Below, one piece after another: positions 6,444 through 27,008 of a DNA stretch of 47,054 nt. Both the position numbers and the translations under genes were made by a program. The notes below the pieces were generated by a model. The model was not told where the DNA came from, searched no databases, and was given only the letters and a program-made list of their open reading frames with translations. The stretch comes from a bacterium (GTDB lineage Bacteria > Zhuqueibacterota > QNDG01), in NCBI GenBank assembly GCA_021158245.1, contig JAGGVB010000201.1, forward strand, positions 1 through 47,054. The letters are read 5' to 3'. Numbering within the stretch: the stretch's first letter is position 1; every line of letters starts with the position of its first letter.

Positions 6444-6472
6444 TTGACAAATGGAAAAGTATTTTTTATATT
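6444..6472 (+). promoter_or_regulatory. Sigma70-type promoter for the SorC-family regulator
   Basis: A consensus -35 TTGACA (6444-6449), a 17-bp spacer and a -10 TATATT (6467-6472). The start codon is about 47 nt past the expected transcription start. No clear Shine-Dalgarno precedes the ATG at 6527. Confidence 0.75.
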
Positions 6473-6526
6473 ATTCCTGTTGTGAACAGAATTTCAACTT
6501 ACAAGAACAAATGATCGCTAATAAAA

Positions 6527-7483
6527 ATGCCATACGTAACAAAAGAAGATGAAGAACTAATAGAAATCTCCCGACTTTATTATGATCACAATTTTAGTCA
6601 GTTAGAGATTGCAAAAAAGTTGGGTATTTCACGGCCAGCTGTTTCTCGTTTGTTGCAAAAAGCCCGAGACAAAGGAATAGTTAAAATAAAAATATGCGAT
6701 CCATCTGATCATGGGACAAAACTTGAAAATAGAATTAAGGATAAATTCAAATTAAGAAAAGTAATTATAGTGCCTAATGAAGGTGTGGACACAAAAGTGA
6801 TTAAGCGGCGTTTAGGTGAAGCAGCAGCAAAATATTTGGATTCTTTATTAACTGAAAATATTATTCTTGGAGTGTCATGGGGTACAACCATGAGAGAAGT
6901 TATTAAGTATTTGAAACCGCGGCCAATAAAAGGAATGATTGTTGTCCAATTGAACGGAGGTGTTGCAAAAGCAGTATATGATACTCATTCCAGTGAGATT
7001 GCAATGAAGATTGGGGAGAACTACCATGCAATACCTTTTCTGATGACATTGCCTGCAATATTTGATGATAGTTCTCTAAAAAAGGCTATTATGAATGATA
7101 AAAATATTTCTCACCAATTGAAGTTGGCTAGTCAAGTTTCGGTAGCGATGTTTACAGTGGGTGCTTTTAATCGTGAATCCGTTTTAGTGTTGGCAGATTA
7201 TTTTGAACCTAATGAAGTTAATTATTTGCTAAAAAAAAGAGCAGTTGGTGATATCTGTTCTAGGATTATTGATGAAAATGGAAAAATTTGTTGGAAAGAG
7301 TTAAATGACAGAACCATTGGAATTGAAATCGAAGAGTTACGAAAAAAAGAATTTTCTATTGCAGTTGCTGGAGGTAAGGAAAAATTAAAGGCCATTTATG
7401 CAGCGTTACTTGGAAAATATTTTAATGTGCTAATCACAGATGAATGGGTTGCTACTGAAATATTAAAATTATCGAGCAATTAA
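6527..7483 (+). CDS. SorC/DeoR(Bsu)-family transcriptional regulator
   Basis: The protein has 318 residues, the usual length for this family. Residues ~18-55 form a helix-turn-helix (LEIAKKLGISRPAVSRLLQK). The rest is the SorC sugar-phosphate-binding domain, with GVSWGTTMREV and VQLNGGVAKAV typical of its sugar-isomerase-like fold. Family members bind phosphorylated sugars; Bacillus subtilis DeoR, a SorC-family protein, responds to deoxyribose-5-phosphate. This fits the DeoC-containing operon that starts 195 bp downstream on the same strand. The likely role is local control of the BMC operon. GAACAAATG-type repeats occur before this gene and before the operon and may be its sites. Family confidence is high; the effector is inferred. 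Confidence 0.9.
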   Translation: MPYVTKEDEELIEISRLYYDHNFSQLEIAKKLGISRPAVSRLLQKARDKGIVKIKICDPSDHGTKLENRIKDKFKLRKVIIVPNEGVDTKVIKRRLGEAAAKYLDSLLTENIILGVSWGTTMREVIKYLKPRPIKGMIVVQLNGGVAKAVYDTHSSEIAMKIGENYHAIPFLMTLPAIFDDSSLKKAIMNDKNISHQLKLASQVSVAMFTVGAFNRESVLVLADYFEPNEVNYLLKKRAVGDICSRIIDENGKICWKELNDRTIGIEIEELRKKEFSIAVAGGKEKLKAIYAALLGKYFNVLITDEWVATEILKLSSN

Positions 7484-7576
7484 TAAATATTCTTAGTCAC
7501 AGGAGAAATATAAATAAGAGGTTATTGTTTATTTGTTAAATTAAAAGAAAAAGGTATAATTTTTTTTAAATTAGAA

Positions 7577-7608
7577 TGAACAAATGTTTTTGAGTGCTGA
7601 ACATATGT
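7577..7608 (+). promoter_or_regulatory. Paired 11-bp repeats, candidate SorC-family operator
   Basis: TGAACAAATGT (7577-7587) and TGAACATATGT (7598-7608) differ at one base and start 21 bp apart, two helical turns. A related GAACAAATG is at 6505-6513, just before the regulator gene, and AACATATGT recurs at 13414-13422 inside another promoter spacer. Confidence 0.5.
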
Positions 7609-10454: not shown

Positions 10455-11843
10455 ATGTCTGAAAAAACAACATTATCAATTGCCATCGGATCGGATCATG
10501 CAGGCTTCTCATTAAAGGAAGTGCTGAAATCATATCTTATAGCGAATGGCTATGAGTTATTTGATTGTGGTACTTATAATAAAGATTCCGTCGATTATCC
10601 AAAATATGCATATGCTGTTGCTAAAAGGATATCCGATGGTAAGGCTCAATTTGGAATTATTGTTGATGGATCCGGTATTGGATCTGCTGTGGTAGCAAAT
10701 AAAGTACACGGTATTCGTGCTGCGATGTGTTATGATCTTTCCACTGCAAAGAGTGCGCGTGAGCACAATGATGCGAATGTATTAACATTAGGTGCAGGAT
10801 TGATCAGCTCAACATTGGCTAAACAAATTGTTGATGTTTTTTTGTCAAGCAAATGTACTGTTGAACGCTATTTGAGTAGAGTGAAGATGGTAGATGATTT
10901 AAACGCATGCATTAAACAGAATTGTAATTTTGAGGACACTGTAAGTCTTCAAAAAAAGGAGACAAATTCATTGGATTTAACAGATCAAGATATTGAGCGC
11001 GTTGCGGATAAAATTAAAGATTTTTTAGAGGCTCAGAAAATTAGTCTATACAATAGCGCAAATGTTGCTTTTAAGCAAAGTGTAGATAATGACCATGATA
11101 CTGTACGCAAATTTATTAACTTGGGTGTTGAGAGGATATCAAATAGTCCTGGGATAACAAATATTCCACGAGACATTGCTAAGTATATTGATCATACTTT
11201 ACTAAACCCTGATGCAACGATTGATGATATTTTGAAATTATGTTCAGAAGCAAAGGAATTTGAATTTGCTTCGGTTTGTATAAATCCAACATATGTCCCA
11301 CTGGCTGCAAAGGAATTGGCAGGAACACATGTCCATGTATGTGCAGTTGTTGGGTTTCCGCATGGAAATCATATGCCTGAGATAAAAGCTCATGAGACAC
11401 GTCGAGCTATTCGTGATGGTGCTAAAGAAATTGATATGGTTATTAATATTGGAGCATTAAAGAATGGTAATGAAGAATTATTATACAAAGATATCAGGAT
11501 GGTTGCTGAAGCTTGTGAAGATGGAGGTGCTTTGAGCAAAGTTATTATCGAAGCAGCATTGCTGACTGACGAAGAAAAAATAATTGCTTGTAAAGTAGCT
11601 AAACGTGCGCGAGCAAATTTTGTAAAGACTTCTACTGGATTTGGCCCGGGAGGTGCGACTAAGCATGATGTAGAATTAATGAGCCGAGTTGTCCGTGATT
11701 CAGGGATGGGAGTTAAAGCTGCTGGGGGAATTAAAACTATTGAAGATTTTAATGAAATGATTACAGCAGGTGCTACAAGAATAGGTGCGAGTGCGGGTGT
11801 TCAAATTCTTGAGCAAGCAAAAAATATTACAGTTTCTGAGTGA
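10455..11843 (+). CDS. deoC: RpiB-DeoC fusion: BMC sugar-phosphate isomerase/aldolase
   Basis: The protein has 462 residues. Residues 7-150 are an RpiB-type sugar-phosphate isomerase ([32 protein letters not shown]). The usual catalytic cysteine (CGTGIG) is replaced by D71 (VDGSGIG). Residues ~235-460 are a deoxyribose-5-phosphate aldolase: D327 (EIDMVIN), Schiff-base K391 (FVKTSTGF) and K421 (GVKAAGG) are all present. The linker holds an amphipathic helix at residues 173-194 ([18 protein letters not shown]) that resembles the N-terminal helix of the aldehyde dehydrogenase and is probably an encapsulation peptide. DeoC splits a 2-deoxy sugar phosphate to acetaldehyde plus glyceraldehyde-3-phosphate; the true substrate of this fusion is unproven. 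It acts inside the microcompartment. The upstream Shine-Dalgarno (AAGGA) is short. Confidence 0.93.
10971..11036 (+). other. Predicted internal encapsulation-peptide helix in the RpiB-DeoC linker
   Basis: Encodes residues 173-194 of the fusion, an 18-20-residue amphipathic helix flanked by low-complexity linker. It aligns without gaps to the N-terminal helix of the aldehyde dehydrogenase (LTEKQVDTVARRVLERLL): L-T-D/E, aliphatics at i/i+3/i+4, R/K at matching faces. Confidence 0.6.
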
Positions 11844-11876: not shown

Positions 11877-12500
11877 TTGGTTGATCTACGTGCTTATATT
11901 TTTTTAGATAGCATCCAACCCCAATATGCAGCATTTTTAGGAACTATTGTGAAAGGATTTTTACCAATTGCCGGAATGGCTTCACTTTATGTTGAAATTT
12001 CTCCCGGGATTGAGATTAATCGTGTAACTGATATTGCATTAAAATCAACAGATGTTACACCAGGAATGCAGATTGTTGAAAGGCTTTACGGATTATTAGA
12101 GGTTCATTCATCCTCCCAAGCAGACGTTCGTCAAGCAGGTAATGCTATTTTGGAGGCATTGGAATTAAAAGAAGAGGAACGGTGGAAACCGAAAATATAT
12201 TCCAGTCAAGTGATTCGTTCTATTGATGATTACCAGACACAGCTGATTAATCGAATGCGCCATGGGAATATGATTGTTCCAGGAGAAACTCTTTTTGTAA
12301 TGGAGGTTCAACCTGCAGCTTATGCAGCTTTGGCTGCTAATGAAGCTGAGAAAGCTGCAGATATCAATATTTTAGAAGTAAGGGCATATGGTAGTTTTGG
12401 AAGGATTTATCTTGGTGGGAAAGAACGGGATATTGATGTCGGCTATCGGGCTGCTATTAAGGCGATTGAGGATGTCTCTGGAAAAGAAATGAAAAATTAA
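11877..12500 (+). CDS. BMC-T shell protein (stacking, gated-pore type)
   Basis: The protein has 207 residues with two tandem BMC domains. The first (residues ~3-100) has [19 protein letters not shown] and [20 protein letters not shown]. The second (~108-205) has IPVGE-like [34 protein letters not shown] and [11 protein letters not shown]. These features match the Haliangium-type trimeric BMC-T class whose trimers can stack face to face with gated central pores, proposed to pass bulky substrates or cofactors. The start is TTG at 11877, seven bases after GGGAGG; the nearby ATG at 11872 is out of frame. It follows RpiB-DeoC by 33 bp, so the two are co-transcribed. Confidence 0.93.
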
Positions 12501-12753: not shown

Positions 12754-13065
12754 ATGGCTGAAGCATTAGGTATGATTGAAACCCGGAGTTTTCCTGCAGT
12801 AGTCGAAGCAGCAGATGCAATGGTAAAAGCAGCAAAAGTAGAATTGGTTGGTTATGAAAAGACAGGAGGCGGTTATGTTTCTGCAATCATTCGGGGTGAT
12901 GTTGCTGCTGTGAAAGCCGCATGCGATGCAGGTAGGGCAGGTGCCTCAAAAGTTGGTGAGATCGTTGCAATCCATGTAATTGCTCGCCTTCATGCGAACG
13001 TTGATATTGTTATGCCACTTGGCCGCATGGAGAAAAAGGAGAAAACAACTATAAAGCGGTCTTAG
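12754..13065 (+). CDS. BMC-H hexameric shell protein
   Basis: The protein has 103 residues with a single canonical BMC (Pfam00936) domain: [53 protein letters not shown], and a short Lys-rich tail. The pore loop reads KTGGG (residues 36-40), where PduA has KIGSG, so the central pore is lined by glycines and may be comparatively open. A strong GGAGGT lies six bases before the ATG. This is the only BMC-H gene in the window, so it should form most of the shell facets. Confidence 0.97.
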
Positions 13066-13099: not shown

Positions 13100-13399
13100 A
13101 TGATTTTAGCAAAGGTAGCGGGTACTGTTGTTGCAACTCAAAAAGAGCCGAGTATGGAAGGACTGAAGTTTCTTTTATTACGTCAGATAGATTTAGATGG
13201 TAAAAAAACAGGTGGTTTTGTAGTAGCAGTAGATGCTGTGGGGGCTGGCATTGAAGAAATTGTACTCTATGCCAGTGGGAGTTCTGCAAGACAAACTATC
13301 ATGACAGAAAAACGTCCATGTGATGCTGTAATCATGGCTATTGTTGATAACTGGGAGGTTGAAGGCCAGTTGAAATATAAAAAGGGTGTTGATGACTAA
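13100..13399 (+). CDS. BMC-P pentameric vertex protein 1 (EutN/CcmL family)
   Basis: The protein has 99 residues and is the full family length: [58 protein letters not shown], and AIVDNWEV at the end. These pentamers cap the vertices of the polyhedral shell. It follows BMC-H by 34 bp with an AGGA before the ATG. Two further BMC-P genes lie at 15557 and 15838; three paralogues with different loop sequences is the arrangement of Haliangium-type shells. Confidence 0.95.
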
Positions 13400-13404: not shown

Positions 13405-13433
13405 TTGACACTTAACATATGTCAGATTATAAT
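13405..13433 (+). promoter_or_regulatory. Perfect-consensus sigma70 promoter inside the BMC operon
   Basis: TTGACA (13405-13410), exactly 17 bp, TATAAT (13428-13433). The spacer holds AACATATGT (13414-13422), shared with the candidate operator at 7598, and an inverted TGACA/TGTCA pair. It should drive the aldehyde dehydrogenase and the genes after it. Confidence 0.8.
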
Positions 13434-13492
13434 ATTTAATTATTCAATATGATGCTGAATAAACATTTTTGATGATTATGAGGAATGTTGAT

Positions 13493-14947
13493 ATGTCTTC
13501 CTTGACGGAAAAGCAGGTTGATACTGTAGCCCGACGTGTACTCGAAAGGTTACTATATACCAGTCCTGATGATAGATTAAATTTGCCTAATAAGAAAGAT
13601 CTTTCTCAAAAATATTCGTCCTTATCAGGCATATTTTCGAAAATAAACGAGGCAGTAGCTGCAGCCGGACAAGCTCAACGCCAGTTAATGCAACTTTCAT
13701 TGGCAAAACGAAATGAGATAATCAAGAATATCCGGCTTAAAATGTCTGAACATGCAGAAGAATTAGCTCGGAAAGCGCATGAAGAGACAGGTCTTGGACG
13801 TGTTGAAGATAAGATTTTAAAGAATAAACTTGTTATTGAGAAAACTCCAGGAACCGAAATATTGACAACTCAGGCGTATTCGGGTGATCGCGGTTTGATG
13901 TTGATGGAATTGGCGCCATATGGTATTATCGGTGCTATAACACCTGTAACGAATCCTACTTCAACGATTATTTGTAATACGATTGGTATGATTGCGGCTG
14001 GGAATGCTGTTGTCTTCAACGTACATCCATCTGCAAAAAATGTAAGTATTGAAAATATTATTCTAATTAATGAAGCGATTTCTGAAGCAGGGGGGCCATG
14101 CAATTTAGTCACGGCAATTTCTGAACCGACAATTGAAAGTGCACAGGAATTGATGAAACATTCAGATGTTCGTTTACTTGTTATAACAGGTGGTGCAAGT
14201 GTTGTAAAAGCAGCCATGACAAGTGGAAAGAGAGCAATCTGTGCAGGGCCTGGGAACCCTCCTATTGTTGTGGATGAGAGTGCGGACATAAAGCAGGCAT
14301 CCAAAGATATATTACTGGGTGCATCTTTGGATAACAATATTATCTGTGTCAGTGGAAAAATTTTGTTCGTAGTAGAAAGTATTGCAGATAAACTTATTTC
14401 AGCACTTAAAAATCAGGGTGCTGTCCAACTAAGTAAAGAACAGTTTACGCATCTTGAGAAGATTATTTTTGCGGAAAACCATGGACCTCGAATGCATGCG
14501 GTTATGGAAAAAACACTTATTGGAAAAGATGTTCAGGTTATATTATCGAAAATTGGAATTAATGTAGATCAGGATGTGCGGTTAGCTATTGTGGAAGTCC
14601 CGTATGAGCATCCATTGGTTTGGACCGAACAGATGATGCCAATTCTTCCGATTGTGAGGGCGGAAAGTGCCGATCAAGCCATTGATATGGCCAAGGAAGC
14701 TGAGGGTGGATTACGCCATACAGCCGTGATGCACTCCAAGAATCTTGACAATTTGAGCCGTATGGCACGGGAAATGGACAGCAGTATTTTTGTGAAGAAT
14801 GGACCTGCAGTTGCCGGTTTGGGTTATGGGGGCGAGGGGTATTGCTCATTTTCAATAGCTAGTCCTACGGGAGAAGGGTTGACAAATCCAAGAAGTTTCG
14901 CTCGTGAACGTCGTTGTGTATTAGTAGACCATTTTAGGATAATATAA
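13493..14947 (+). CDS. BMC CoA-acylating aldehyde dehydrogenase (PduP/EutE-like)
   Basis: The protein has 484 residues from the ATG at 13493, chosen because GAGGA lies eight bases upstream; in-frame TTG 13469, ATG 13472 and ATG 13478 lack a good site. This start puts the helix LTEKQVDTVARRVLERLL at residues 4-21, a typical N-terminal encapsulation peptide, followed by a flexible linker. The enzyme domain has the PduP-type cofactor segment GIIGAITPVTNPTSTIICNT and the catalytic cysteine C285 in NNIICVSGK. It oxidises the aldehyde made by the aldolase to acyl-CoA with NAD+ inside the shell. Its stop overlaps the next start (TAATG), indicating translational coupling. Confidence 0.95.
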   Translation: MSSLTEKQVDTVARRVLERLLYTSPDDRLNLPNKKDLSQKYSSLSGIFSKINEAVAAAGQAQRQLMQLSLAKRNEIIKNIRLKMSEHAEELARKAHEETGLGRVEDKILKNKLVIEKTPGTEILTTQAYSGDRGLMLMELAPYGIIGAITPVTNPTSTIICNTIGMIAAGNAVVFNVHPSAKNVSIENIILINEAISEAGGPCNLVTAISEPTIESAQELMKHSDVRLLVITGGASVVKAAMTSGKRAICAGPGNPPIVVDESADIKQASKDILLGASLDNNIICVSGKILFVVESIADKLISALKNQGAVQLSKEQFTHLEKIIFAENHGPRMHAVMEKTLIGKDVQVILSKIGINVDQDVRLAIVEVPYEHPLVWTEQMMPILPIVRAESADQAIDMAKEAEGGLRHTAVMHSKNLDNLSRMAREMDSSIFVKNGPAVAGLGYGGEGYCSFSIASPTGEGLTNPRSFARERRCVLVDHFRII

Positions 14948-15594
14948 TGAAAGTATACCCTGCAATAGCATTAATCGAATATTCAGATATTCCTATGGGA
15001 ATTCTATGCAGTGATGCAATGGTTAAACACTCTCCAATTTCAATGATTAAGACTGGTACTGTATCTCGGGGTAAATTTTTGATTTTGATTGGGGGCAGTG
15101 TTGCTTCTGTGGAAGAAGCGTACGAAGAAGGTGTAAATAGAGGAAAATCTTTCCTTTTGGATTCTCTATTTCTGCCTGATGTGCATAGACAAGTCTATGA
15201 TGCGTTGTTAGGGAACCGCACTGGATGTATTGGGGATGGCATAGCTGTTTTTGAGACGAAAACAGTGGCAACAGTGATTCGTTCATCAGACGCAGCTGTT
15301 AAAAGTGCAGATGTAGACATTATTGAAACCCGAATGGCTGATTCTTTGGGTGGTCAAGCATTTACAATATTTACGGGGAAAGTAGGGGATCTTGAATCAG
15401 CTATTCGGATTGCTCAAAGATCAGCTGAAGAATTTAATGCTTTGTGTAGCTATTCGATTATCCCCAAATTGCATCCAGAGATCGCTAAGCAAATTGATGT
15501 ATCAACACGATTTTCAAAAATTGAAAGTTTATTTATTAAAGATGGAGAGATAAATAATGTTATTGGGAAGGGTGATAGGAACTCTGACACCTAG
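14947..15594 (+). CDS. BMC-T shell protein (second, Haliangium T1-like)
   Basis: The protein has 215 residues with two BMC domains: residues ~4-95 (PAIALIEYSDIPMGILCSDA, GKFLILIGGSVASVEEAYEE) and ~100-185 (GIAVFETKTVATVIRSSDAA, GGQAFTIFTGKVGDLESAIR). It differs from the first BMC-T: each half is closer to a plain BMC-H domain, as in single-layer trimers. A C-terminal extension of about 30 residues overlaps the next gene by 38 bp. The start overlaps the aldehyde dehydrogenase stop. Confidence 0.92.
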   Translation: MKVYPAIALIEYSDIPMGILCSDAMVKHSPISMIKTGTVSRGKFLILIGGSVASVEEAYEEGVNRGKSFLLDSLFLPDVHRQVYDALLGNRTGCIGDGIAVFETKTVATVIRSSDAAVKSADVDIIETRMADSLGGQAFTIFTGKVGDLESAIRIAQRSAEEFNALCSYSIIPKLHPEIAKQIDVSTRFSKIESLFIKDGEINNVIGKGDRNSDT

Positions 15595-16119: not shown

Positions 16120-16334
16120 AAAAGTTGATTTGTGTTATTAACTATTTGACTTTTTTATTAAAGGAATATTTATGTATAAATAAATAAAGAATAAAATAAT
16201 TTCATATCAGAAAAGTTAATTTAGGAAATAATTGACAATTAGTTGTAAGAAAAGAAAGGAGGTACCAATTGTGCTTTGAATGCATTTTTTAAAATTTGGA
16301 AAATGTATCTAAAAAACAAAAGGAGGAGGAACAA

Positions 16335-19292
16335 ATGAGGAAGAATAGTATTTTTAGGATGGAGATTATTTTTTTGACAATAATTTTTCTTATTATTATA
16401 TCCTCGAGCTTGTATGCTGCAACGACAGGTAAGATATTTGGAAAAGTGACAGATAAGGGAACAGGAGAGCCTCTTATAGGGGCTAATGTGCTAATTGTTG
16501 GTACATCCTTGGGAGCAACCACTGATAAAAATGGAGAATATTTTATTATTAATATTCCTCCTGGTATTTTTTCGGTTAGATGCTCTTATATGGGTTATAA
16601 CCAGGTTACTCAAACAGAAGTAAAAATTTATGTGAGTAGAACAACTTATTTGAATTATGAATTATCTCAATCAGTTGTGAAAGGTCAAAGTGTGACTATC
16701 ACAGCTAAACGACCAATTGTTGTAAAGGATCTTACAGCCAGTGAACAGGTTATAACAACAAATGATATAGATAAAACCTGGGCAAGATCATTTGATGAAG
16801 TGATATCAACGCAGACAGGTGTATTTGGCGGCCACTTTCGTGGCGGATCGAAAGTTGAAACTTCTTATTTATTGGATAATGTAAGTTTGAACAGCGGACT
16901 TTTATCTGATAATTATCAAGGTTTAAATACAACTGCTCTGCAAGAAATTGCTGTCCAAACGGGTGGATATAATGCTGAATTTGGGAATGCCCAATCTGGA
17001 GTTGTCACTATGGTGTCTAAATCATCAGAGAAGGGGATTCACGGTACATTCCTTAGTCGTATGCGTCCTGCAGGAAAGTATCACTGGGGGCGTAATATCT
17101 ACAGCCATGAAAATTATGATTGGGCAGGCCATGGCCTTGATTTTTGGACTGAAGAATCTCTTAATCCTCAGAGTCAATATTTCGGTCAGAATCCTAATAA
17201 TCTACTTGCTCAATGGCAAACTCAAATGACTCCAGACCCAATTCAGGGAAAATATGCAGAGCGTCCTGAATATGAGACGGAATTTACAATTTACGGTGCT
17301 GCAAATTCTAAAATAAGTTTTTTGTTATCCGGGCGATACAAACGGGGGGTCAATATTTTTCCACAAATGACAGCATATAATCCGGAATATAACTTTCAGG
17401 GGAACTTGGAATATAAGCTCAATAAAAATATGAAATTGAAATTTAGTGGAATATACGGTGGTTATGAAACTTGTTCAAATTCACTTTCAAACTATAATAC
17501 TTTGGAAAATTCACAAGAAATTGCTTGGTTACCATTTCCACAAGCAACCGATCCTTACCACTGGTTTAAAATTAATATGCCCGGTGCCTGGCATTTCTGG
17601 CCGGAATTGAGAAAAACACAGAGTTATTCTTTGAAGTGGACACATGTACTTAATCCAAAAACTTTTTACGAAATCAATTTCAACTATCTGCATGATAATA
17701 TGGATAAAACTGACAGAGATAACCTTTTCCCATGGTCTATCAGGACAGCAGATAATAAATGGGATTTTGATGATGAAAAATTCGGTATGCTTGGTATATA
17801 CGAATTAGAAGGCTATATCCATTTTAATGTGTGGTTTGATAGTAAAGTTTATAGTATCAAAGGTGATCTTACAAGTCAAGTTAATAAAAACAATTTGATT
17901 AAGACGGGTTTTGAAGCCAAGAGTTATGATTTTGCTTATGATCATGCAATGTCGTCCTATGAAGGCGGTAGCCGCTGGAACTTGATGAATATTTTCAATG
18001 GTAAACCCTATGAAGGTACATATTACGTTCAGGACAAACTTGAATTTGCAGGAATGATTATTAATGCAGGTATTCGAATGGATTTTTTCAATCAGAAACG
18101 TAATGCACCTAAAAACATGTTTGATCCTCTGGCTTACGAGTCGACAACTCCTGGTAACATTACTCCATGGTATCCTGGGGAACCGGAAAGGGAAAAGACA
18201 AAAACACAATTTGCTGTAGCTCCCCGTTTAGGGATTTCTCATCCTATCAGTGAAAATACGGTGTTACACTTTAATTATGGCCATTTTTATCAAAGGCCTT
18301 CATGGAACAAAATGTTTGGATTTCCATATATCAGTTATACAGAGGATAATGAAGTTCTGCGAAATCCTTATGATCCCAATACTATAGCTTTTATGGATCA
18401 ATGGCAGGGTTTTCTAGGTAATCCCAAAATGGGATATGAGAAAACAATTCAATATGAGATTGGAGTGGATCAGAATATTGCCAATTTATTAAGGCTGGAT
18501 ATAACAGGTTATTATAAAGATGCCAGTGATCAAACAGTATTTAGGGAAGGTACTTATTACGATCCATACTACGGGGATCTAAATACTTGGACAACAGTTT
18601 ACAACGCTTTGAACCAATATAATATCCCACTTATGGTCTCTAACTGTGCCTATGCTGATATCCGCGGATTAGAAGTTAAAATGGATACTCGTTTTAAGTT
18701 TCCCCTCAATTTTAACTTTAGTTATGATTTAAATTACACAACAGGAGGAGTTGTAGGATATGCTACCCTTTATGAATTAAATTCAGGCGTAAATTCACCT
18801 CAGGGTTTTGCAGGGCGGAAAAAACCGTGGAACAGCAATAACAAATTCAAGGGTATAGCCAATTTGTATTTTCCATCTGGATTCGGACCATCCATTGCAG
18901 GATTTAAGCCGTTGAGTAATTTTAATGTAAATTTATATTTCGAATACTGGAATGGTCAGCAGTATACTTATCATGGACCGGGAGATGCATCAACGGAGCC
19001 AAATAACATGCGCTGGTTTGCTCATTACAGAACGAATTTGAAAGTAGCAAAAAGAATCCAGATTCTGGGCATTCAAACCGAATTGAGTATGGATATCCGA
19101 AATCTTCTTAATAACAAAGATCTGAATTTGCTGTTTGGTAATGATATGACATTTTATCAAGAGAATCCAGATCTTTCACTTGAAGAAAGGCTACCAAAGA
19201 ATTGGTGGTCAGGTGAACCAAATAAGTGGGTTTGGTATAGTTGGGCAAATCTGCCACGACAAATTTACTTCCAATTGAAAGTCGATTTTTAA
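16335..19292 (+). CDS. TonB-dependent outer-membrane receptor with CarboxypepD-reg-like domain
   Basis: The protein has 985 residues from the ATG at 16335, which has AGGAGGAGG five bases upstream; a TTG at 16296 is in frame but has no site. A signal peptide (to ~LYAA) is followed by a carboxypeptidase-regulatory-like beta domain (GKIFGKVTDKGTGEPLIGAN), a plug domain (DEVISTQTGV, VQTGGYNAEFGNAQSGVV) and a large beta-barrel that ends in phenylalanine (LKVDF), as outer-membrane barrels do. It resembles the oligosaccharide receptors of FCB bacteria but no SusD homologue follows. Its place between the shell genes and the permease suggests uptake of the substrate of the BMC pathway. Confidence 0.9.
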   Translation: MRKNSIFRMEIIFLTIIFLIIISSSLYAATTGKIFGKVTDKGTGEPLIGANVLIVGTSLGATTDKNGEYFIINIPPGIFSVRCSYMGYNQVTQTEVKIYVSRTTYLNYELSQSVVKGQSVTITAKRPIVVKDLTASEQVITTNDIDKTWARSFDEVISTQTGVFGGHFRGGSKVETSYLLDNVSLNSGLLSDNYQGLNTTALQEIAVQTGGYNAEFGNAQSGVVTMVSKSSEKGIHGTFLSRMRPAGKYHWGRNIYSHENYDWAGHGLDFWTEESLNPQSQYFGQNPNNLLAQWQTQMTPDPIQGKYAERPEYETEFTIYGAANSKISFLLSGRYKRGVNIFPQMTAYNPEYNFQGNLEYKLNKNMKLKFSGIYGGYETCSNSLSNYNTLENSQEIAWLPFPQATDPYHWFKINMPGAWHFWPELRKTQSYSLKWTHVLNPKTFYEINFNYLHDNMDKTDRDNLFPWSIRTADNKWDFDDEKFGMLGIYELEGYIHFNVWFDSKVYSIKGDLTSQVNKNNLIKTGFEAKSYDFAYDHAMSSYEGGSRWNLMNIFNGKPYEGTYYVQDKLEFAGMIINAGIRMDFFNQKRNAPKNMFDPLAYESTTPGNITPWYPGEPEREKTKTQFAVAPRLGISHPISENTVLHFNYGHFYQRPSWNKMFGFPYISYTEDNEVLRNPYDPNTIAFMDQWQGFLGNPKMGYEKTIQYEIGVDQNIANLLRLDITGYYKDASDQTVFREGTYYDPYYGDLNTWTTVYNALNQYNIPLMVSNCAYADIRGLEVKMDTRFKFPLNFNFSYDLNYTTGGVVGYATLYELNSGVNSPQGFAGRKKPWNSNNKFKGIANLYFPSGFGPSIAGFKPLSNFNVNLYFEYWNGQQYTYHGPGDASTEPNNMRWFAHYRTNLKVAKRIQILGIQTELSMDIRNLLNNKDLNLLFGNDMTFYQENPDLSLEERLPKNWWSGEPNKWVWYSWANLPRQIYFQLKVDF

Positions 19293-19357: not shown

Positions 19358-21355
19358 ATGAAAATGAACAAAAATAAATATAAAGGTTGCTGTAAGTACA
19401 GCTTCCTTTTACGGGTAAAAATTCTTTTCCTTATGTCTTGTCTGGTTAGTACTTCGTTTGCACAAGTAAATTGGGATAAGGCATCGCTAACACGAGGAAA
19501 AGTATGGCTAACTATTATGAATTCTTGTCAGTGGGGTAATCCTGTTAATCCACCTTCCAAGTTTTATTTATTAGATTATCCCGGATATAGTACAGGTGCT
19601 AATCTTTGGGACCATATGTCCTATGCCTGGTCTGGCGGGTACACGATTTATGGGGAGAGAAATGGAGCTGCAGCTGCCTATACAATTGGTACTGCTTTTT
19701 ATTCATCATCGCAGTATGTTTACCCAACAGTTGCATCATCTCTAACTAAAAATTATAATCTGGAAGATCCCGCAATACCTGCAGAAGAAGTTGCTTCAGG
19801 TGCATCACATGTGATCGATCTAAACGTGGATGTATCCCATAAAAGCATGGTATGGAGTTTTCCAAAATATGATGATTTTATCATCCATGAATATACAATC
19901 ACAAATACAGGTAATACACCATTGGACAATCTTTATTTTGGTGTGCGTGTTGCTTGCTGGCCCACTATGAAAGGGGACGGTGCTATTATTGGTAATGGTA
20001 ATTTTAGTTGGAATATTGATAATAAATACGGTTGGAATGAGAATTACGATTTTTACTATGTCTATGATGGCTGGTCTTTCCGGTGGGAAGATGAAGCGCC
20101 GCTTAATTTTACTTTTGGTCCCGGACCGGAAACTGGTGATATAGGTGATCCGGCTGATCTTTTTGATCCTAATGCACAAACTCACGAACTTCTTGCACCT
20201 GGATACACGGCTATCGTCTGTTTGGATTCTGCTGGGGCTAATGTTTATCAGAATATTGGACAATTTTTAGGTCAACAACCACCATTTGCAGGTCAGGTTG
20301 ACCCTGAAGATATTGTTCCTCGTCTCGGGACCAATACACCTTCTGAAATTCTGGAAAAAATTACACATCAACAGCCGCGTTTATCCTGGGATGATGCACA
20401 TGCACAGGGAGTAGAAGGCGGAAGTAAATATTTAAGAATGCCTGAAGTTATGATCACATGCGGGCCCTATAATGATATTCCCCCTGGTGGATCTGTAAAA
20501 GTTGTATTTGCTGAGGTTTTGGGTGAGATGGATAGAGCTAAGATTGTCCAAGGTGGGGTGGAGAATGTAAAACTTCTAGCAACAAAATCGAAAGCAGCTC
20601 TTTTTGAGAATGTGAAAAATTGTTTTGAATTGTATCACAACGGATATCAGATAGATGATCCACCACCGATGACACCAACGAACGGGGAAAATAGTCTTAC
20701 ACTAACTCCGATTGGCGGTGGTGTTAAAATTGCATGGCCACCTATTCCGGATACATATACAGATCCTGTTTCAGGAGTCAATGATTTAGAAGGATATAGA
20801 GTATATCGTTCAAATTATTTTGTAATCGGACCCTGGAAGCTTATTGCAGATATTAAGATTGAAGATGCAGCTGTTGAAGATGGAATGGTTTCTTATTCAG
20901 ATGAAGGTTTGTCATTGGGTGTTGGTAATTATTATACAGTAACGAGTTATGATACCAATGGGAATGAGAGCGGAAAGGTTAATGCTAACCGATATCCCGT
21001 TTATCCACTACGTCCGCCAAACCCAGACTTTCCTAAAAAGGTGTATGTGGTTCCAAATCCATTCCGCCAACACAGTGGATTAATTGGTTCAGGTGAAGAA
21101 TTGAGAATGGAATTTATTGGTATCCCGGCACAGTGCACGATTAGGATTTATACTTTAGCTGGTGAATTGGTAAGAAAAATCGAACATGATGATGGTAGCG
21201 GGTCCCAATCATGGGGTAGTATTCTTGAATTGGATTATCAAGTGAATAAGTGGATGATGTATGTAGCACCTGGGGTTTATGTTTATCATATAGAATCAAA
21301 TGTTCCAGAACATAAAGGTGAAACTTACATTGGTAAATTAGCAATTATTAAGTAA
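19358..21355 (+). CDS. Secreted surface protein with FnIII and type IX-like C-terminal domain
   Basis: The protein has 665 residues. The ATG at 19358 follows AAAGGAG. It has a hydrophobic signal segment (ending SFAQ), a large unassigned region, a fibronectin-III-like domain around residues 455-540 (LEGYRVYRSN, NYYTVTSYDTNGNESG) and a C-terminal Ig-like sorting domain (VYVVPNPF, IRIYTLAGELV, APGVYVYHIES, GKLAIIK), as in proteins exported by the type IX secretion system in FCB bacteria. It lies between the TonB receptor and a PorV-like gene, so it may be a surface glycan-binding partner of the receptor. The ligand is unknown. Confidence 0.8.
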   Translation: MKMNKNKYKGCCKYSFLLRVKILFLMSCLVSTSFAQVNWDKASLTRGKVWLTIMNSCQWGNPVNPPSKFYLLDYPGYSTGANLWDHMSYAWSGGYTIYGERNGAAAAYTIGTAFYSSSQYVYPTVASSLTKNYNLEDPAIPAEEVASGASHVIDLNVDVSHKSMVWSFPKYDDFIIHEYTITNTGNTPLDNLYFGVRVACWPTMKGDGAIIGNGNFSWNIDNKYGWNENYDFYYVYDGWSFRWEDEAPLNFTFGPGPETGDIGDPADLFDPNAQTHELLAPGYTAIVCLDSAGANVYQNIGQFLGQQPPFAGQVDPEDIVPRLGTNTPSEILEKITHQQPRLSWDDAHAQGVEGGSKYLRMPEVMITCGPYNDIPPGGSVKVVFAEVLGEMDRAKIVQGGVENVKLLATKSKAALFENVKNCFELYHNGYQIDDPPPMTPTNGENSLTLTPIGGGVKIAWPPIPDTYTDPVSGVNDLEGYRVYRSNYFVIGPWKLIADIKIEDAAVEDGMVSYSDEGLSLGVGNYYTVTSYDTNGNESGKVNANRYPVYPLRPPNPDFPKKVYVVPNPFRQHSGLIGSGEELRMEFIGIPAQCTIRIYTLAGELVRKIEHDDGSGSQSWGSILELDYQVNKWMMYVAPGVYVYHIESNVPEHKGETYIGKLAIIK

Positions 21356-21405: not shown

Positions 21406-22428
21406 ATGCAATATAATAAAAAAACTATCATATTCATCAATGCTACCCTCGTCTTTCTTATGGCCATTTCAGGATTGTATGCACAAAGTGGTATTGATCC
21501 TTATAAGATTGAACGTGTTGGTTTGACAGGGTGGCAATTTTTAAAAATTCAAAATGATGCTAGATTCGCAGCAATGGGTGGAGCCTTTACTGCTGTTTCT
21601 CATGGTGATGCTGGATCAATATTCAGTAATCCGGCAGCTTTGACTGATGTTGATAATTTGGATTGTTTTATCAGCAATGTCAATTGGATTGCTGATATAG
21701 GATATAGAAATGCATCAATTGCTAAACGGTTAGGCAGGATAGGCGTGTTCGGGCTTAGCGTTGCCATAGTTGATATGGGAGATATTGATGAAACTATAAA
21801 CAGTCCTGTTATTGGAGAAAATAGAACTGAAGCTGTCGTTACTGGAAATACTTTTAGTGCAAGCGATTTTGCGGTTGGATTGTCTTATGCAAAAAAAATT
21901 ACTGACCGTCTTTCCATTGGTGGTAATGTAAGATGGATTCAGGAAAAGATTGCGGATGTTAGTATGCAAAATGTATCTGTCGATTTTGGTACAATCTTTC
22001 ATACTGGATTCAAGAGTTTGCGATTTGCTATGTTGGCACGTAATTTTGGACCCGATGCTCACTTAGTTGGATGGTCCGAAGAATACCAATCTGAGGCAGT
22101 TGATGTTCGTATGCCACTTGATTTTCGTTTAGGAATGGCTATGGACTTTTTTGATACTGAAGGTAGTAATCAGCTATTAACAATTTCCTTAGATGGCAGT
22201 CATCCTAATGATGGCCCAGAAAAGATAAATTTAGGCGGCGAATATACTCTTGCAGATATTCTTATCCTTCGAGCAGGTTATCGTTTTAATTATGATGAAG
22301 AAAATTTTTCTTTTGGTGGCGGACTACAGTACAAAATAGGTGAAGTATCAGCAAAGATCAATTATGCATTTGTTAACTTTAGCAGATTAAAGCAAGTTCA
22401 AATGTTCTCTTTAGGCTTTTCTTTCTAA
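21406..22428 (+). CDS. PorV/PorQ-family outer-membrane protein
   Basis: The protein has 340 residues: a signal peptide (ending YAQS), then the family hallmark FLKIQNDARFAAMGGAFTAV followed by SIFSNPAAL. The rest is alternating beta strands ending in a Phe-rich strand (FSLGFSF), consistent with a FadL/PorV-like barrel. PorV shuttles type IX secretion substrates at the outer membrane; with the sorting-domain protein just upstream, a dedicated export partner is likely (inference). The start has AGGAGG upstream. A hairpin at 22435-22474 follows. Confidence 0.88.
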   Translation: MQYNKKTIIFINATLVFLMAISGLYAQSGIDPYKIERVGLTGWQFLKIQNDARFAAMGGAFTAVSHGDAGSIFSNPAALTDVDNLDCFISNVNWIADIGYRNASIAKRLGRIGVFGLSVAIVDMGDIDETINSPVIGENRTEAVVTGNTFSASDFAVGLSYAKKITDRLSIGGNVRWIQEKIADVSMQNVSVDFGTIFHTGFKSLRFAMLARNFGPDAHLVGWSEEYQSEAVDVRMPLDFRLGMAMDFFDTEGSNQLLTISLDGSHPNDGPEKINLGGEYTLADILILRAGYRFNYDEENFSFGGGLQYKIGEVSAKINYAFVNFSRLKQVQMFSLGFSF

Positions 22429-22643: not shown

Positions 22644-23645
22644 ATGTTTGTATTACAAAGTTATCTACCAGCGGTAATTTTTTGTGTCATTACTATGTTT
22701 TGCTGGGGATCTTGGGCTAATACTCAGAAGCTGGCAAAAAAGGAATGGCGTTTTGAACTTTTTTATTGGGATTACACGATCGGTGTTTTATTATTATCCA
22801 TTGTTTCAGCGCTTACTTTAGGAAGTATGGGATCAGTCGGAAGAAGTTTTTTCCAGGATATAGCTCAGGCTGATTTCAACAATATACTATCAGCAGCTAT
22901 TGGGGGAGCTGTGTTTAATGCTGCAAATATCCTTTTGGTTGCTGCTATTGCTATTGCAGGCATGTCTGTTGCCTTTCCCGTAGGGATAGGATTAGCCTTG
23001 GCATTGGGAGTTGTTATTAATTTTATTGCAACACCACTCGGGAATCCAATACTCCTTTTTGTAGGGGTGGCATTAGTAGTTGCAGCTATTTTTTTTGATG
23101 CTGCTGCCTATAAAAAAATACCTGGTCAATCTGGAAGTGTCTCAACTAAAGGTCTTGTTCTTTCTGTTTTATGCGGAATTCTGATGGGATTCTTTTATAG
23201 ATTCGTAGCGAGAGCTATGTCAACAGACTTTGTTAATTTGGAAGCAGGGAAACTGAGTCCTTATACAGCTGTGTTCTTTTTCTCTGTAGGAGTGGTTGTC
23301 AGTAATTTTGTATTTAATACCATAATTATGAAAAAACCATTTGTTGGTAAGCCGGTTCCATTTTCTGCTTATTTCAAAGGCGGATTTCGCATACATCTAA
23401 TTGGTATACTTGGTGGCATTATCTGGAATATTGGAATGTCCTTAAACATAATTGCATCAGGTCAGGCAGGTTTTGCGATTTCCTATGGACTGGGACAGGG
23501 AGCCACGTTGGTAGCGGCACTCTGGGGCGTATTCATTTGGAAGGAATTTAAAGCAGCGCCAAAATCAGCAAATAAACTCATAGCACTTATGTTCTTTTGT
23601 TTTGTTATCGGTTTAGGTCTTATTATAATTTCAAGGTTGGCTTAA
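22644..23645 (+). CDS. DMT-superfamily sugar/nucleoside permease (GRP/RhaT/ureide-permease-like)
   Basis: The protein has 333 residues with about ten transmembrane helices in two repeats. It starts with SYLPAVIFCVITMFCWGSWA, and GMSVAFPVGIGLALALGVVI and ISYGLGQGATLVAALWGVFI mark the pore regions of the GRP/RhaT/ureide-permease group. In Bacteroidetes related permeases sit beside ribokinase genes and import ribose or nucleosides; ribokinase is three genes downstream here. It should move the monomeric sugar or riboside across the inner membrane. The ATG at 22644 has AGAGAGG upstream. Confidence 0.85.
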   Translation: MFVLQSYLPAVIFCVITMFCWGSWANTQKLAKKEWRFELFYWDYTIGVLLLSIVSALTLGSMGSVGRSFFQDIAQADFNNILSAAIGGAVFNAANILLVAAIAIAGMSVAFPVGIGLALALGVVINFIATPLGNPILLFVGVALVVAAIFFDAAAYKKIPGQSGSVSTKGLVLSVLCGILMGFFYRFVARAMSTDFVNLEAGKLSPYTAVFFFSVGVVVSNFVFNTIIMKKPFVGKPVPFSAYFKGGFRIHLIGILGGIIWNIGMSLNIIASGQAGFAISYGLGQGATLVAALWGVFIWKEFKAAPKSANKLIALMFFCFVIGLGLIIISRLA

Positions 23646-23711: not shown

Positions 23712-24971
23712 GTGATACTGCAAAAAAGTTTGAGTTATTCAATAGTTGTTTTATTTGTGATTATTCTATGCAATTGCTCTGTGCAATCTTTAGATGAGGA
23801 TAATTCAAACTTAAATTATATACCACCAATTAGTGATACACGGGATGTCTTTGTACTATCCCGTGCTACTAAAATTTGTCAACTCGTAGGCGATTGGGAT
23901 CGAGAACGACAAGAGCCGACGCTCAATCAAACAGGGATTAGGTATAATCTAGATATGATAGACCTCGGCGTTCCATTTATACACAAAGGTCTGACGTATA
24001 TTCTTTTTGGTGAAACATGGATAGGTGCTTACGATGCTATAGCCTATACGAATGATACTACTCCGGAGGATGGTCTCCAATTGGATTTCATCCAAAATGA
24101 AGATGGACATTTCAGACCCGTAAGTATTCCTGGTGTAAGTCTGGGGGCTTTTGAAGCGCTATTGGAAGGGGTGAGTATAGGGGGGCGTATGTACATCTAT
24201 GTAAGTACAGATAATTATAAGTATGGTGTAGGGCCTGGTTATGAGTATTCGCGTTCGGTCTTGGCGGTATCTGATGATAACGGATATACTTTTACTTATT
24301 TATACGACTTATCAACATTTCCAAATGGGCATTTCATCAATGTTTCAATTGTAAAAGTGGAAGTATCAGCATGGGAAGGTTTTCCGGATTCGACGGGTGT
24401 CGGCTTGGTTCTATTTGGCTCTGGAAAGCCCGCACAGAGCAATGTTTTTCTTGCTTTTCAACCTGCAGAGCTGATTGAAGACCCATCGAGTATATGGTAT
24501 TTTGCAGGTTTGACTGATTCTGGTGAACCAACCTGGAGCAGCCAAGAACAAGATGCTAAACCGCTCTTTCTTCAACCATGTGTGGCATCAATATCAGTTA
24601 CATACAATCGTTTTATTCATAAATGGATAATGCTCTACCCCTGCCTTTTCCCAGAAAGACCCGATTATCTGCGAGGTATCAATATGCGAACCGCGGATTA
24701 TCCATGGGGTCCTTGGTCACTTCCGACAATCATTTTCCATCCATGGGAGGATAACGCATTAGGTAGCTACATGCATGTGAGTTGGGAGTATGCTGTGATG
24801 GATTCTGTGCATGATCCTGGCAGGGAATACGAATGGGGTATTGAATACGGTTCCTACCAATATGGGATGTTCGCGACTGGAGATTCCGCTACGACAACAA
24901 TCTATTTTAATATGTCCACTTGGAATCCGTATACTGTTGTATTGATGAAGACTATTTTACAAAAGTTGTGA
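23712..24971 (+). CDS. DUF4185 secreted beta-propeller hydrolase, probable lipoprotein
   Basis: The protein has 419 residues from GTG 23712, with AGGGAAGAAA upstream. A hydrophobic segment ends IILCNCS, a possible though non-canonical lipobox. The mature protein has the DUF4185 pattern: KICQLVGDWDRERQEPTLNQ, then DLGVPFIHKGLTYILFGETW, and the repeated propeller motifs SVTYNRFIHKWIMLY and PWGPWS. From memory, DUF4185 contains the GH183 endo-D-arabinofuranosidases that cut mycobacterial arabinan. A pentofuranosidase would suit a pentose pathway, but the substrate here is not established. Confidence 0.75.
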   Translation: MILQKSLSYSIVVLFVIILCNCSVQSLDEDNSNLNYIPPISDTRDVFVLSRATKICQLVGDWDRERQEPTLNQTGIRYNLDMIDLGVPFIHKGLTYILFGETWIGAYDAIAYTNDTTPEDGLQLDFIQNEDGHFRPVSIPGVSLGAFEALLEGVSIGGRMYIYVSTDNYKYGVGPGYEYSRSVLAVSDDNGYTFTYLYDLSTFPNGHFINVSIVKVEVSAWEGFPDSTGVGLVLFGSGKPAQSNVFLAFQPAELIEDPSSIWYFAGLTDSGEPTWSSQEQDAKPLFLQPCVASISVTYNRFIHKWIMLYPCLFPERPDYLRGINMRTADYPWGPWSLPTIIFHPWEDNALGSYMHVSWEYAVMDSVHDPGREYEWGIEYGSYQYGMFATGDSATTTIYFNMSTWNPYTVVLMKTILQKL

Positions 24972-25034
24972 ACTAACCCAATTTTAGTTATTATTTTCTG
25001 ATTGTTTAAAAAGAAGGGTGAAAGGAGTTGTGAA

Positions 25035-26033
25035 ATGCGAAAGAAATTGTTAATTTTTATAGTAGTATTATTCATTTTTTTATTAATTCAGCCTATGCAA
25101 GCACAACAGGTCAAGATGGAGAAAATAAATTACGGAGGCTGGCCAAATTGCATTCAATTGAGTAATAATGAAGTCGAACTTGTAATAACTACAGATGTCG
25201 GCCCTCGTGTTATCAGATATGGTTTTGTCGGTAAACAAAATCTTTTCAAAGAGTATGCAGATCAAATGGGCAAAACAGGTGGTAATGAGTGGCGTATTTA
25301 TGGTGGACATCGTCTTTGGCATGCACCAGAATCAAAACCACGTTCATATGCACCAGACAATGAATCAATTAAATATGTCTGGGATGGTACAACATTGATT
25401 TTAATACAGCCCGTCGAACATTCAACCGGGTTTATCAAAGAAATAGCGATTACACTTGACTCAAAAGGAACTCATGTTAAAGTTGAACATACTCTTATCA
25501 ATAAAAATCTTTGGACGATCGAGACAGCACCCTGGGCAATGTCTACAATGGCAGAAAATGGTCGGGCCATTTTCCCTCAGGAGCCACTGTATCCCTATCC
25601 GGAATATCTGCCTCCGGCGAGACCAATGGTTTTATGGCATTACTCTGATATGGGTGATCCAAGATGGACATGGGGTAAAAAATATATTCAATTACAACAG
25701 GATCCCAAAGCAACCGGACAAGTTAAGATTGGATTAGGCAATACTCTTGGATGGGCAGCTTATTGTCTTAATGGCCAGGTTTTCATAAAACGTTTTCCTT
25801 ATGTTACTGGAGCAATTTATCCTGATTTTGGAAGCTGTAACAATGAGACATTTACTAATCAAAGTATGTTGGAAATAGAGACTTTGGGTCCTATTGTGAA
25901 AATATTGCCAGGGGGTAAAACAACTCACATAGAACATTGGTTTCTATTTAATGCAAAGATCAGGAAAAGTGAAGATTCAATTGATAAGAATTTACTCCCT
26001 TTAGTTGAACAAACAAAAAAATATATAAATTGA
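25035..26033 (+). CDS. DUF4380 secreted protein (mutarotase-like fold)
   Basis: The protein has 332 residues from the ATG at 25035, nine bases after AAAGGAG; an in-frame TTG at 25002 lacks a site. A signal peptide (to ~QAQQ) precedes a beta-sandwich resembling galactose mutarotases: NNEVELVITTDVGPRVIRYG, WRIYGGHRLWHAPE, and LPGGKTTHIEHWFLF. The family (DUF4380) has no firm function; aldose-1-epimerase-like or sugar-binding activity is the fair guess. It lies between the DUF4185 gene and ribokinase. Confidence 0.75.
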   Translation: MRKKLLIFIVVLFIFLLIQPMQAQQVKMEKINYGGWPNCIQLSNNEVELVITTDVGPRVIRYGFVGKQNLFKEYADQMGKTGGNEWRIYGGHRLWHAPESKPRSYAPDNESIKYVWDGTTLILIQPVEHSTGFIKEIAITLDSKGTHVKVEHTLINKNLWTIETAPWAMSTMAENGRAIFPQEPLYPYPEYLPPARPMVLWHYSDMGDPRWTWGKKYIQLQQDPKATGQVKIGLGNTLGWAAYCLNGQVFIKRFPYVTGAIYPDFGSCNNETFTNQSMLEIETLGPIVKILPGGKTTHIEHWFLFNAKIRKSEDSIDKNLLPLVEQTKKYIN

Positions 26034-26087
26034 TGGGTCAGAGTTATTATTTATTTAGTTTTGATTTTTTAAAAGGAGATGTTAAAA

Positions 26088-27008
26088 ATGAATAAATCGA
26101 AAATTATTGTAATAGGAAGTGCAGGTGTTGATTTAACAGTTAAACTTGAAAGACTGCCCAAACCAGGTGAGACTATTGTGGGTGGTACTTTTAGTAAAGC
26201 ATATGGTGCTAAAGGTGCAAATCAAGCTGTTGCTGCTGCGCGACTTGGAGGGAATGTCACATTTGTTGCAAACATGGGTGCTGATGATTACAGGAAAGAA
26301 TCCATAATAAATTTTCAAAATGAAGGGATGAACACAGAATTTATCACCGCTGATAATGAATATCCTACAGCAGTCGCTTTTATTTTTGTTGATAAAAAAG
26401 GGGAGAACGCTATAGGAGTCGCTTCTGGTGCCAATATGAATTTATCAGTAAAAGATGTTGAAAAAGCAAAGGGCGTTATAGCAGATCATAATGTGATGCT
26501 TTTACAATTAGAAACTCCTGTTGAAACGAACAGGTATTCCGCACGTTTAGGCAAAGAATTCGGAATTATGGTCATATTAAATCCAGCTCCGGCATTTCCA
26601 TTAGATGAAGATTTATTGCGAATGATTGACGTATTGACACCCAATGAAACCGAAGCTGAGATTTTGACTGGTATTAAAGTCATAGATGAAAGTAGCGCTA
26701 AACAAGCTGCAGACATGTTAAGAAAAAAAGGTGCAGCCAATGTAATCATCACCATGGGAGCACAAGGGGCTTTTCTACTCACGGATGTACATTCGGGAAT
26801 GATATCGAGCATTAAAATTGATGCGGTAGATACCACAGCGGCTGGAGATGCATTTAACGGTGCCTTAGCCTTTGCGTTGTCAAATGGAGAATCTCTAAAG
26901 GATGCTGTTAAATTTGCAAATATGGCAGGGGCTTTTGCAGCCACTAAATTAGGAGCACAACCATCTATGTCGAATCGAGAAGAACTCCGTAAATTTGCAG
27001 GTGTTTGA
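26088..27008 (+). CDS. rbsK: Ribokinase (PfkB family)
   Basis: The protein has 306 residues from the ATG at 26088, nine bases after AAAGGAG (an ATG at 26079 overlaps that site). It has the PfkB signatures: GSAGVDLTVKLERLPKPGET, GGTFSKAYGAKGANQAVAAA (sugar binding) and DAVDTTAAGDAFNGALAFAL (anion hole and catalytic Asp). It phosphorylates ribose, or possibly deoxyribose, at O5 with ATP to give the sugar phosphate for RpiB-DeoC. It has no encapsulation-peptide-like tail, so it probably acts in the cytosol before the product enters the shell. Confidence 0.93.
   Translation: MNKSKIIVIGSAGVDLTVKLERLPKPGETIVGGTFSKAYGAKGANQAVAAARLGGNVTFVANMGADDYRKESIINFQNEGMNTEFITADNEYPTAVAFIFVDKKGENAIGVASGANMNLSVKDVEKAKGVIADHNVMLLQLETPVETNRYSARLGKEFGIMVILNPAPAFPLDEDLLRMIDVLTPNETEAEILTGIKVIDESSAKQAADMLRKKGAANVIITMGAQGAFLLTDVHSGMISSIKIDAVDTTAAGDAFNGALAFALSNGESLKDAVKFANMAGAFAATKLGAQPSMSNREELRKFAGV

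Follow-up and report, generated by a model that had tools for sequence, protein, structure and literature searches.

Bacterial microcompartments (BMCs) of the sugar-phosphate-utilising (SPU) type carry DeoC and RpiB, and the Marinimicrobia form, as described in excerpts of the source paper, has both enzymes fused and lacks PduL (Axen 2014; PMC4207490). More than 280 SPU loci are reported from 26 phyla, with the metabolism of DNA degradation products as their proposed role (Sutter 2021; PMC8217296), and in excerpts of both papers the SPU substrate is predicted rather than shown. Here we analyze an SPU-like island on contig JAGGVB010000201.1 of the bacterial assembly GCA_021158245.1 (Zhuqueibacterota, also called candidate phylum KSB1; QNDG01); the window, 47,054 nucleotides long, is this complete contig, from a 3.2-Mb genome in 233 contigs. 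Every called gene from 6527 to 27008, regulator through ribokinase, lies on the + strand (ORF calls and Pfam scans), and all island genes listed in the original prediction for this DNA were recovered there. Judged by its genes and their order, the island core is a Marinimicrobia-type SPU microcompartment, an already known kind; the new part appears to be an extension, a D-pentofuranoside feeder ending in ribokinase in place of the nucleoside feeder. We give a probability of roughly 55% to the reading in which an SPU-type BMC operon has lost its usual nucleoside-salvage feeder and received a pentofuranoside feeder instead.

A Marinimicrobia-type SPU core

The core genes and their regulator, with the SPU signature enzymes in one fusion and a CoA-acylating aldehyde dehydrogenase (AldDH), are as follows.

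6527..7483, + strand: SorC/DeoR-type regulator, closest NCBIfam model the Bacillus-type DeoR (PF04198, 1.7e-71)
10455..11843, + strand: RpiB-DeoC fusion, SPU signature enzymes (PF02502, 1.4e-50; PF01791, 2.4e-23)
10977..11015, + strand: encapsulation-peptide-like helix in the fusion linker, residues 175-187 (motif common to fusion linkers and AldDH N-termini)
11877..12500, + strand: BMC-T shell protein, CcmP-like, double-disc class (NF053796 CcmP, 334.6 bits)
12754..13065, + strand: BMC-H shell protein (PF00936, 4.3e-28)
13100..13399, + strand: BMC-P shell vertex protein (PF03319, 1.9e-29)
13469..14947, + strand: CoA-acylating AldDH, encapsulation-peptide-like motif at N-terminal residues 12-24 (NF011927, 656 bits)
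14947..15594, + strand: BMC-T shell protein, PduT-like, two BMC domains (PF00936 twice; TIGR02526, 88 bits, below cut-off)
15557..15841, + strand: BMC-P shell vertex protein (PF03319, 9.2e-18)
15838..16119, + strand: BMC-P shell vertex protein (PF03319, 1.7e-22)

Both hallmark SPU families, the pfam01791 aldolase and the pfam02502 isomerase, are present in a single fused protein, and the H, T and P shell genes and the CoA-acylating AldDH are ordered as at other loci. The predicted shell gene count (1 BMC-H, 2 BMC-T and 3 BMC-P) proved correct, and no BMC-domain genes besides this set were detected in the genome, with the divergent BMC-T visible to the protein scan only. We observe the order fusion/BMC-T/BMC-H/BMC-P/AldDH/BMC-T/BMC-P/BMC-P at dozens of independent loci across many phyla, so the arrangement is not due to chance; relatives of the fusion itself occur in many phyla (genome scan), and an orthologue of the regulator lies immediately 5' of the fusion in Neomarinimicrobiota loci and some KSB1 loci. 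The CcmP-like BMC-T is 67-85% identical to its counterparts at other SPU loci. This recurring gene order, together with the published SPU definition, supports the earlier assignment of the core to the known sugar-phosphate-utilising type. With the Marinimicrobia form, as far as excerpts describe it, the island shares the fused isomerase-aldolase, the AldDH, three BMC-P proteins, a CcmP-like BMC-T and the lack of PduL. A carboxysome was considered and dropped: only shell proteins match the CcmP and CcmL models, with scores under their cut-offs, and the SPU signature enzymes are present.

Cys293 of the AldDH is conserved in 39/39 sequences. A shared encapsulation-peptide-like motif, searched with the looser of two patterns and with a shuffle control, is found in 46/61 fusion linkers and 36/36 AldDH N-termini and nowhere else in those proteins, the expectation in shuffles being ~0.2. 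In a comparison of 24 window proteins, the RpiB-DeoC fusion and the AldDH alone carry it, as expected if these two core enzymes and no others bear encapsulation peptides; targeting is predicted for both. Just 5' of the AldDH gene, at 13405-13433, lies a perfect sigma-70-type consensus (12/12), and another match (11/12) is found 5' of the regulator at 6444-6472; overall, sigma-70-type sites are no more numerous than in shuffles.

The two halves of the fusion differ in how they keep their catalytic residues. In the DeoC domain (TIGR00126, 285 bits, cut-off 117), the catalytic Asp327, the Schiff-base Lys391 and the second lysine, Lys421, are invariant in 62/62 fusions, as expected of a deoxyribose-phosphate aldolase. 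The RpiB half lacks the canonical catalytic Cys (E. coli Cys66, in the CGTG motif that solved RpiBs carry): at this position 60 of the 62 aligned fusions have Asp, in the window Asp71 (10665-10667), and the other 2 have Asn. Three unfused SPU RpiBs that we checked have Asp there as well, while the separate RpiB of the same genome keeps Cys. As RpiB of M. tuberculosis illustrates, an RpiB may use a catalytic base other than Cys. The SPU RpiB half may thus isomerise with a carboxylate as its base, may act on a different sugar phosphate, or may not be an isomerase, and the class-wide Cys-to-Asp change is a concrete ground for doubting that SPU RpiB is an ordinary ribose-5-phosphate isomerase. Excerpts of Axen 2014 (PMC4207490) and Sutter 2021 (PMC8217296) do not mention this change.

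A candidate pentofuranoside feeder

Unlike the Marinimicrobia-form SPU BMC, the window has a GH116 gene within the operon and a module from TonB-dependent receptor to ribokinase appended to it; TonB, glycoside hydrolase and ribokinase genes are not mentioned in the main text of Sutter 2021 (PMC8217296).

7669..10419, + strand: GH116 glycosidase, signal-peptide-like N-terminus, exo-beta-D-arabinofuranosidase type, between regulator and fusion (PDB 8ic6)
16296..19292, + strand: TonB-dependent receptor, N-terminal carboxypeptidase-regulatory-like domain (PF13715, 2.3e-17; PF07715, 3.9e-5)
19358..21355, + strand: secreted 665-aa protein without assigned family (no Pfam match)
21406..22428, + strand: PorV-like outer-membrane protein, weak match (PF19572, 2.4e-5)
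22644..23645, + strand: inner-membrane permease, ureide-permease/RhaT-like (PF07168, 1.4e-20; TIGR00776, 39.5 bits, far below cut-off)
23712..24971, + strand: GH183 (DUF4185) putative lipoprotein, endo-D-arabinanase family (PF13810, 91.3 bits, cut-off 39.5)
25002..26033, + strand: DUF4380 protein, signal-peptide-like N-terminus, mutarotase-related (NF052227)
26079..27008, + strand: ribokinase, ribose-type lid (TIGR02152, 345.5 bits, cut-off 299.65)

The GH116 gene lies 35 bp 5' of the fusion; in relatives the regulator is the gene directly before the fusion. By phmmer, its product matches the exo-beta-D-arabinofuranosidase ExoMA2 (8ic6) at E=9.9e-150 and the best beta-glucosidase at 3e-25, and a beta-glucosidase assignment was dropped because the ExoMA2 match is better by >100 orders of magnitude in E-value. 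Its residues E427, H442, R479 and D571 correspond to Glu431, His446, Arg483 and Asp557 of ExoMA2, which act there as the nucleophile, the pair that reads O2 of arabinofuranose, and the acid/base (PMC10509167). The protein hence has the nucleophile, the acid/base and the His/Arg pair, replacing Asp/His of beta-glucosidases, that are the hallmark of subfamily 4, and we predict an activity of the secreted exo-beta-D-arabinofuranosidase type.

GH183 (DUF4185) endo-enzymes and GH116 exo-enzymes act in D-arabinan degradation (PMC10115798, PMC10509167), and the characterised GH183 proteins cited in the former are all D-arabinanases. The window's GH183 protein has the hallmark DUF4185 domain and matches the PDB endo-alpha-D-arabinanase 8hhv at 1.4e-5; across KSB1, GH183 is found in 22/82 and GH116 in 26/82 genomes. 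The D-arabinan loci of Microbacterium arabinogalactanolyticum and Dysgonomonas gadei likewise combine GH183 and exo-type GH116 with a transporter and a sugar kinase (PMC10509167, PMC10115798), but in the window GH116 is apparently secreted, the downstream enzymes are those of a BMC and the kinase is ribose-like.

The receptor gives a partial SusC/RagA match only, and no SusD match was found among the cluster proteins, so the hallmark of a SusC/SusD-type polysaccharide-utilisation locus is lacking. Two labels of the original prediction are weaker than the rest: the "PorV-like" protein scores 24.5 bits with PF19572 against a cut-off of 27, and the "type IX-type" surface protein is the 665-aa protein without any Pfam match, for which AlphaFold2 from a single sequence gave an unusable model (mean pLDDT 29). 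The homologue of the 665-aa protein is directly beside that of the PorV-like protein in two KSB1 loci elsewhere, G044:C26 and G022:C6, with GH183 next to them. The DUF4380 protein matches the TTE1925 mutarotase model NF052227 over its full length at 329 bits, below the cut-off of 550, and a PDB sequence search with it returned nothing significant. Two equivalog models identify the kinase as a ribokinase, and its lid has all three ribose-selective residues (Ala100, Ile102 and Ile112), which in E. coli ribokinase favour ribose and disfavour D-arabinose (PMC9604405).

At other SPU loci nucleoside genes are the most frequent neighbours. In a set of 130 genes lying near fusion loci on the same strand, the leading Pfams are phosphopentomutase-type Metalloenzyme (6), PGM/PMM (5), PNP/UDP phosphorylase (4), pyrimidine nucleoside phosphorylase (PyNP; 4), class II aldolase (4) and triosephosphate isomerase (3). 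NCBIfam models assign DeoB and pyrimidine-nucleoside phosphorylase to one neighbour each, both above cut-off; a PGM/PMM neighbour scores as archaeal-type GlmM, its role uncertain. A nucleoside phosphorylase, DeoB or PGM/PMM lies nearby at no fewer than 15 of the 63 fusion loci, many of them clipped by contig ends, and the closest KSB1 relatives, G015 and G019 (fusions 62-66% identical), have PyNP and PGM/PMM beside the regulator. Unlike these loci, the window has no nucleoside phosphorylase or phosphopentomutase of the kinds found there; a DeoC plus PyNP lie on a different contig of the same genome. The regulator scores 364.8 bits with the DeoR model NF053881, below its cut-off of 420, with the next model at 147 bits. 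Together, the neighbours and the DeoR-like regulator support the published nucleoside/deoxyribose reading for the SPU core generally. In three KSB1 loci, G044:C1 (L121), G072:C585 (L125) and G075:C238 (L127), a class II aldolase gene stands 3' of the SPU shell genes, a placement that suggests a second aldolase reaction tied to the BMC.

In the pathway that we favour, GH183 (at the surface or in the periplasm) and secreted GH116 would free D-pentofuranose units from a glycan entering via the TonB receptor, the units being D-arabinofuranose by family and possibly D-ribofuranose. The DUF4380 protein would equilibrate anomers, the permease would carry the free pentose to the cytosol, and ribokinase would form the 5-phosphate. 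Inside the shell, with the steps taken from the published SPU model, the RpiB-like and DeoC domains would split the pentose-5-phosphate into glyceraldehyde-3-phosphate and a two-carbon aldehyde (acetaldehyde from a 2-deoxy sugar, conceivably glycolaldehyde otherwise), which the AldDH would trap as acyl-CoA. There is precedent for BMCs that catabolise polysaccharide-derived sugars, namely the PVM BMC fed by fucoidan degradation (excerpt of PMC8217296) and the GRM5 BMC of Clostridium phytofermentans (PMC3557285), but those use different signature aldolases and different sugars (6-deoxyhexoses). Some of the feeder parts have a further counterpart without a shell. Bacteroides ribose-utilisation (rus) loci hold a TonB receptor, a permease and a ribokinase together with no BMC, a likeness of description rather than of sequence.

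Evidence against the coupling

Several findings weigh against a pentofuranoside feeder, beginning with its conservation. We compared all window proteins with the flanks of 63 fusion loci (44 with at least 3 kb upstream, 31 with at least 6 kb downstream) and with longer KSB1 stretches, and found no fusion-linked homologue of the GH116, receptor, 665-aa, PorV-like, permease, GH183, DUF4380 or ribokinase proteins at any of the 63 loci; the window's GH183 and ribokinase genes lie 12-14 kb downstream, beyond the 10-kb flanks of most loci but not those of G044 and G075. The sole GH183 match was the same genome's second copy on another contig, and G019 gave one weak receptor match >40 kb from its fusion. 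A single same-genus genome was compared (80% complete), with no fusion, GH116 or GH183. The outer-membrane and DUF genes are thus absent beside the BMC in all relatives examined, within the available flanks, and a conserved gene cluster was dropped as an explanation since feeder homologues are not linked to other fusions. What the original prediction took for a new contiguous path from polymer capture to encapsulated cleavage still reads as a way to capture furanosides and take them up, with GH183 and GH116 giving the capture of a polymer its content, but conservation does not back it: the coupling looks private to this genome among those examined, and the path would therefore be a private rewiring rather than a conserved system. 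In G044 a TonB/665-aa/PorV-like set again lies close to GH183, and G022 has part of this set; the accompanying genes there are GH38, GH31 or ABC transporters, with no BMC, so the feeder seems assembled from parts circulating in the phylum.

The enzymes raise further doubts. The four GH116 residues are conserved in KSB1 relatives too and therefore mark the subfamily, not the exact substrate. GH183 keeps the nucleophile Asp84, but its acid/base is Glu101 (24012-24014) instead of the family Asp, so that the two-aspartate hallmark is broken here; Asp occupies the position in ten other KSB1 members, including the genome's second copy. Unlike the D-arabinan loci, no isomerase-plus-kinase route to ribulose-5-phosphate is seen: a FucI-type/PF07881 isomerase was not found in a profile search with working controls. 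A genome search for GH172, which D-arabinan loci hold alongside GH183 and GH116, gave no match, with its positive control likewise unmatched. Intergenic gaps of 176 bp and 215 bp may split the island into separate transcription units.

The signals for the substrate clash as well. The original prediction had left it open among ribose, deoxyribose, arabinofuranoside and nucleoside readings; the options are now fewer and in conflict, with the hydrolase families pointing to D-arabinofuranose, the ribokinase lid to D-ribose, and the DeoR-like regulator and intact DERA residues to deoxyribose-5-phosphate. We tentatively place a D-arabinofuranoside first, at less than even odds, and a D-ribofuranoside or ribose second; deoxyribose or an unrelated compound takes the remainder.

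Flanking genes and repeats

Two direct repeats of ~0.6 kb flank the 24-kb island.

5371..5968, + strand: direct repeat, left copy, comprising the 3' end of a 744-aa gene and a SUMF1/FGE-like gene (86-91% identity to right copy)
29264..29861, + strand: direct repeat, right copy (86-91% identity to left copy)

The repeats, spaced 23893 apart, correspond to the terminal parts of two pairs of paralogous genes, each pair encoding a 744/761-aa protein and a SUMF1/FGE-like protein. They would permit gain or loss of the island through recombination, although no island-free site was seen, and such repeats can also mislead metagenome assembly. The paralogous secreted proteins (3229-5463 and 27071-29356) are 58% identical, each followed by an FGE-sulfatase-domain gene, and have homologues in 11/82 KSB1 genomes; the pair has no Pfam match and nothing significant in a PDB sequence search, and an AlphaFold2 model of the 761-aa protein from two sequences was unusable (pLDDT 37). 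Further upstream, 30-848 and 1157-3175 each encode a protein with an ADP-ribosylglycohydrolase domain, and both proteins are possibly linked to ribose release; the second also has an extended hydrophobic C-terminal region. Beyond the right repeat, 30365-33811 encodes a large protein with a spermine/spermidine-synthase domain and a long TPR array, and ARAGORN calls a tRNA with undetermined anticodon at 33857-33936 that is probably spurious.

Alternative explanations

The alternative that survives best, though we hold it unlikely, is that the module, like the ribose-utilisation systems of Bacteroides, scavenges D-ribose or ribofuranosides derived from a glycan, nucleosides or ADP-ribose, with RbsK making ribose-5-phosphate for the RpiB-like domain and GH183 and GH116 shifted to ribofuranosides. 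The ribokinase, above its equivalog cut-off and with three ribose-selective lid residues (PMC9604405), fits this scheme, as do the ureide-permease-like transporter, the Asp-to-Glu change at the GH183 acid/base and the two ADP-ribosylglycohydrolase-domain genes just upstream; the latter, however, fall outside the repeat-bracketed island. GH116 also retains the His/Arg pair with which ExoMA2 binds O2 of D-arabinofuranose, and ribose alone offers DeoC no obvious substrate.

Rather less probable is a plain nucleoside/DNA-type SPU BMC, converting deoxyribose-5-phosphate to acetaldehyde and acetyl-CoA, beside an unrelated glycan-uptake cluster. Such a BMC would account for the DeoR-like regulator and the invariant DERA residues, would agree with the nucleoside genes at many other SPU loci and with the unconserved coupling, and could draw deoxyribose-1-phosphate from the genome's PyNP. 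GH116, however, sits within the operon and not beside it, the genes of 6527-27008 are all co-directional, the cluster ends in a sugar kinase suited to a 5-phosphate entry point, and the window lacks the nucleoside genes that its two closest relatives keep beside the core.

That the GH116, TonB and GH183 genes serve some other glycan with no pentose link, the ribokinase belonging to general salvage, is the least probable reading: GH116/GH183 homologues do occur in mixed KSB1 loci (GH38, GH31, ABC transporters) and the family members here are uncharacterised, but GH116 is far closer to the D-arabinofuranosidase than to beta-glucosidases and the cited GH183 precedents are all D-arabinanases.

Implications

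Within the pentofuranoside feeder reading, a narrower version is a long shot: a D-arabinofuranoside (D-arabinan) BMC in which the Asp-type RpiB would isomerise arabinose/ribose-5-phosphate, DeoC would split pentose-5-phosphates into glyceraldehyde-3-phosphate and glycolaldehyde, and the AldDH would trap the latter as glycolyl-CoA. If true, the SPU shell would gain both a substrate and an encapsulated reaction that are new to it. For the pentofuranoside feeder as a whole, if the coupling is real, the island would be a natural rewiring experiment, in which the same shell and core enzymes are fed through ribokinase by a furanoside-cutting module, and the entry substrate of SPU microcompartments, a pentose-5-phosphate, would become directly testable.

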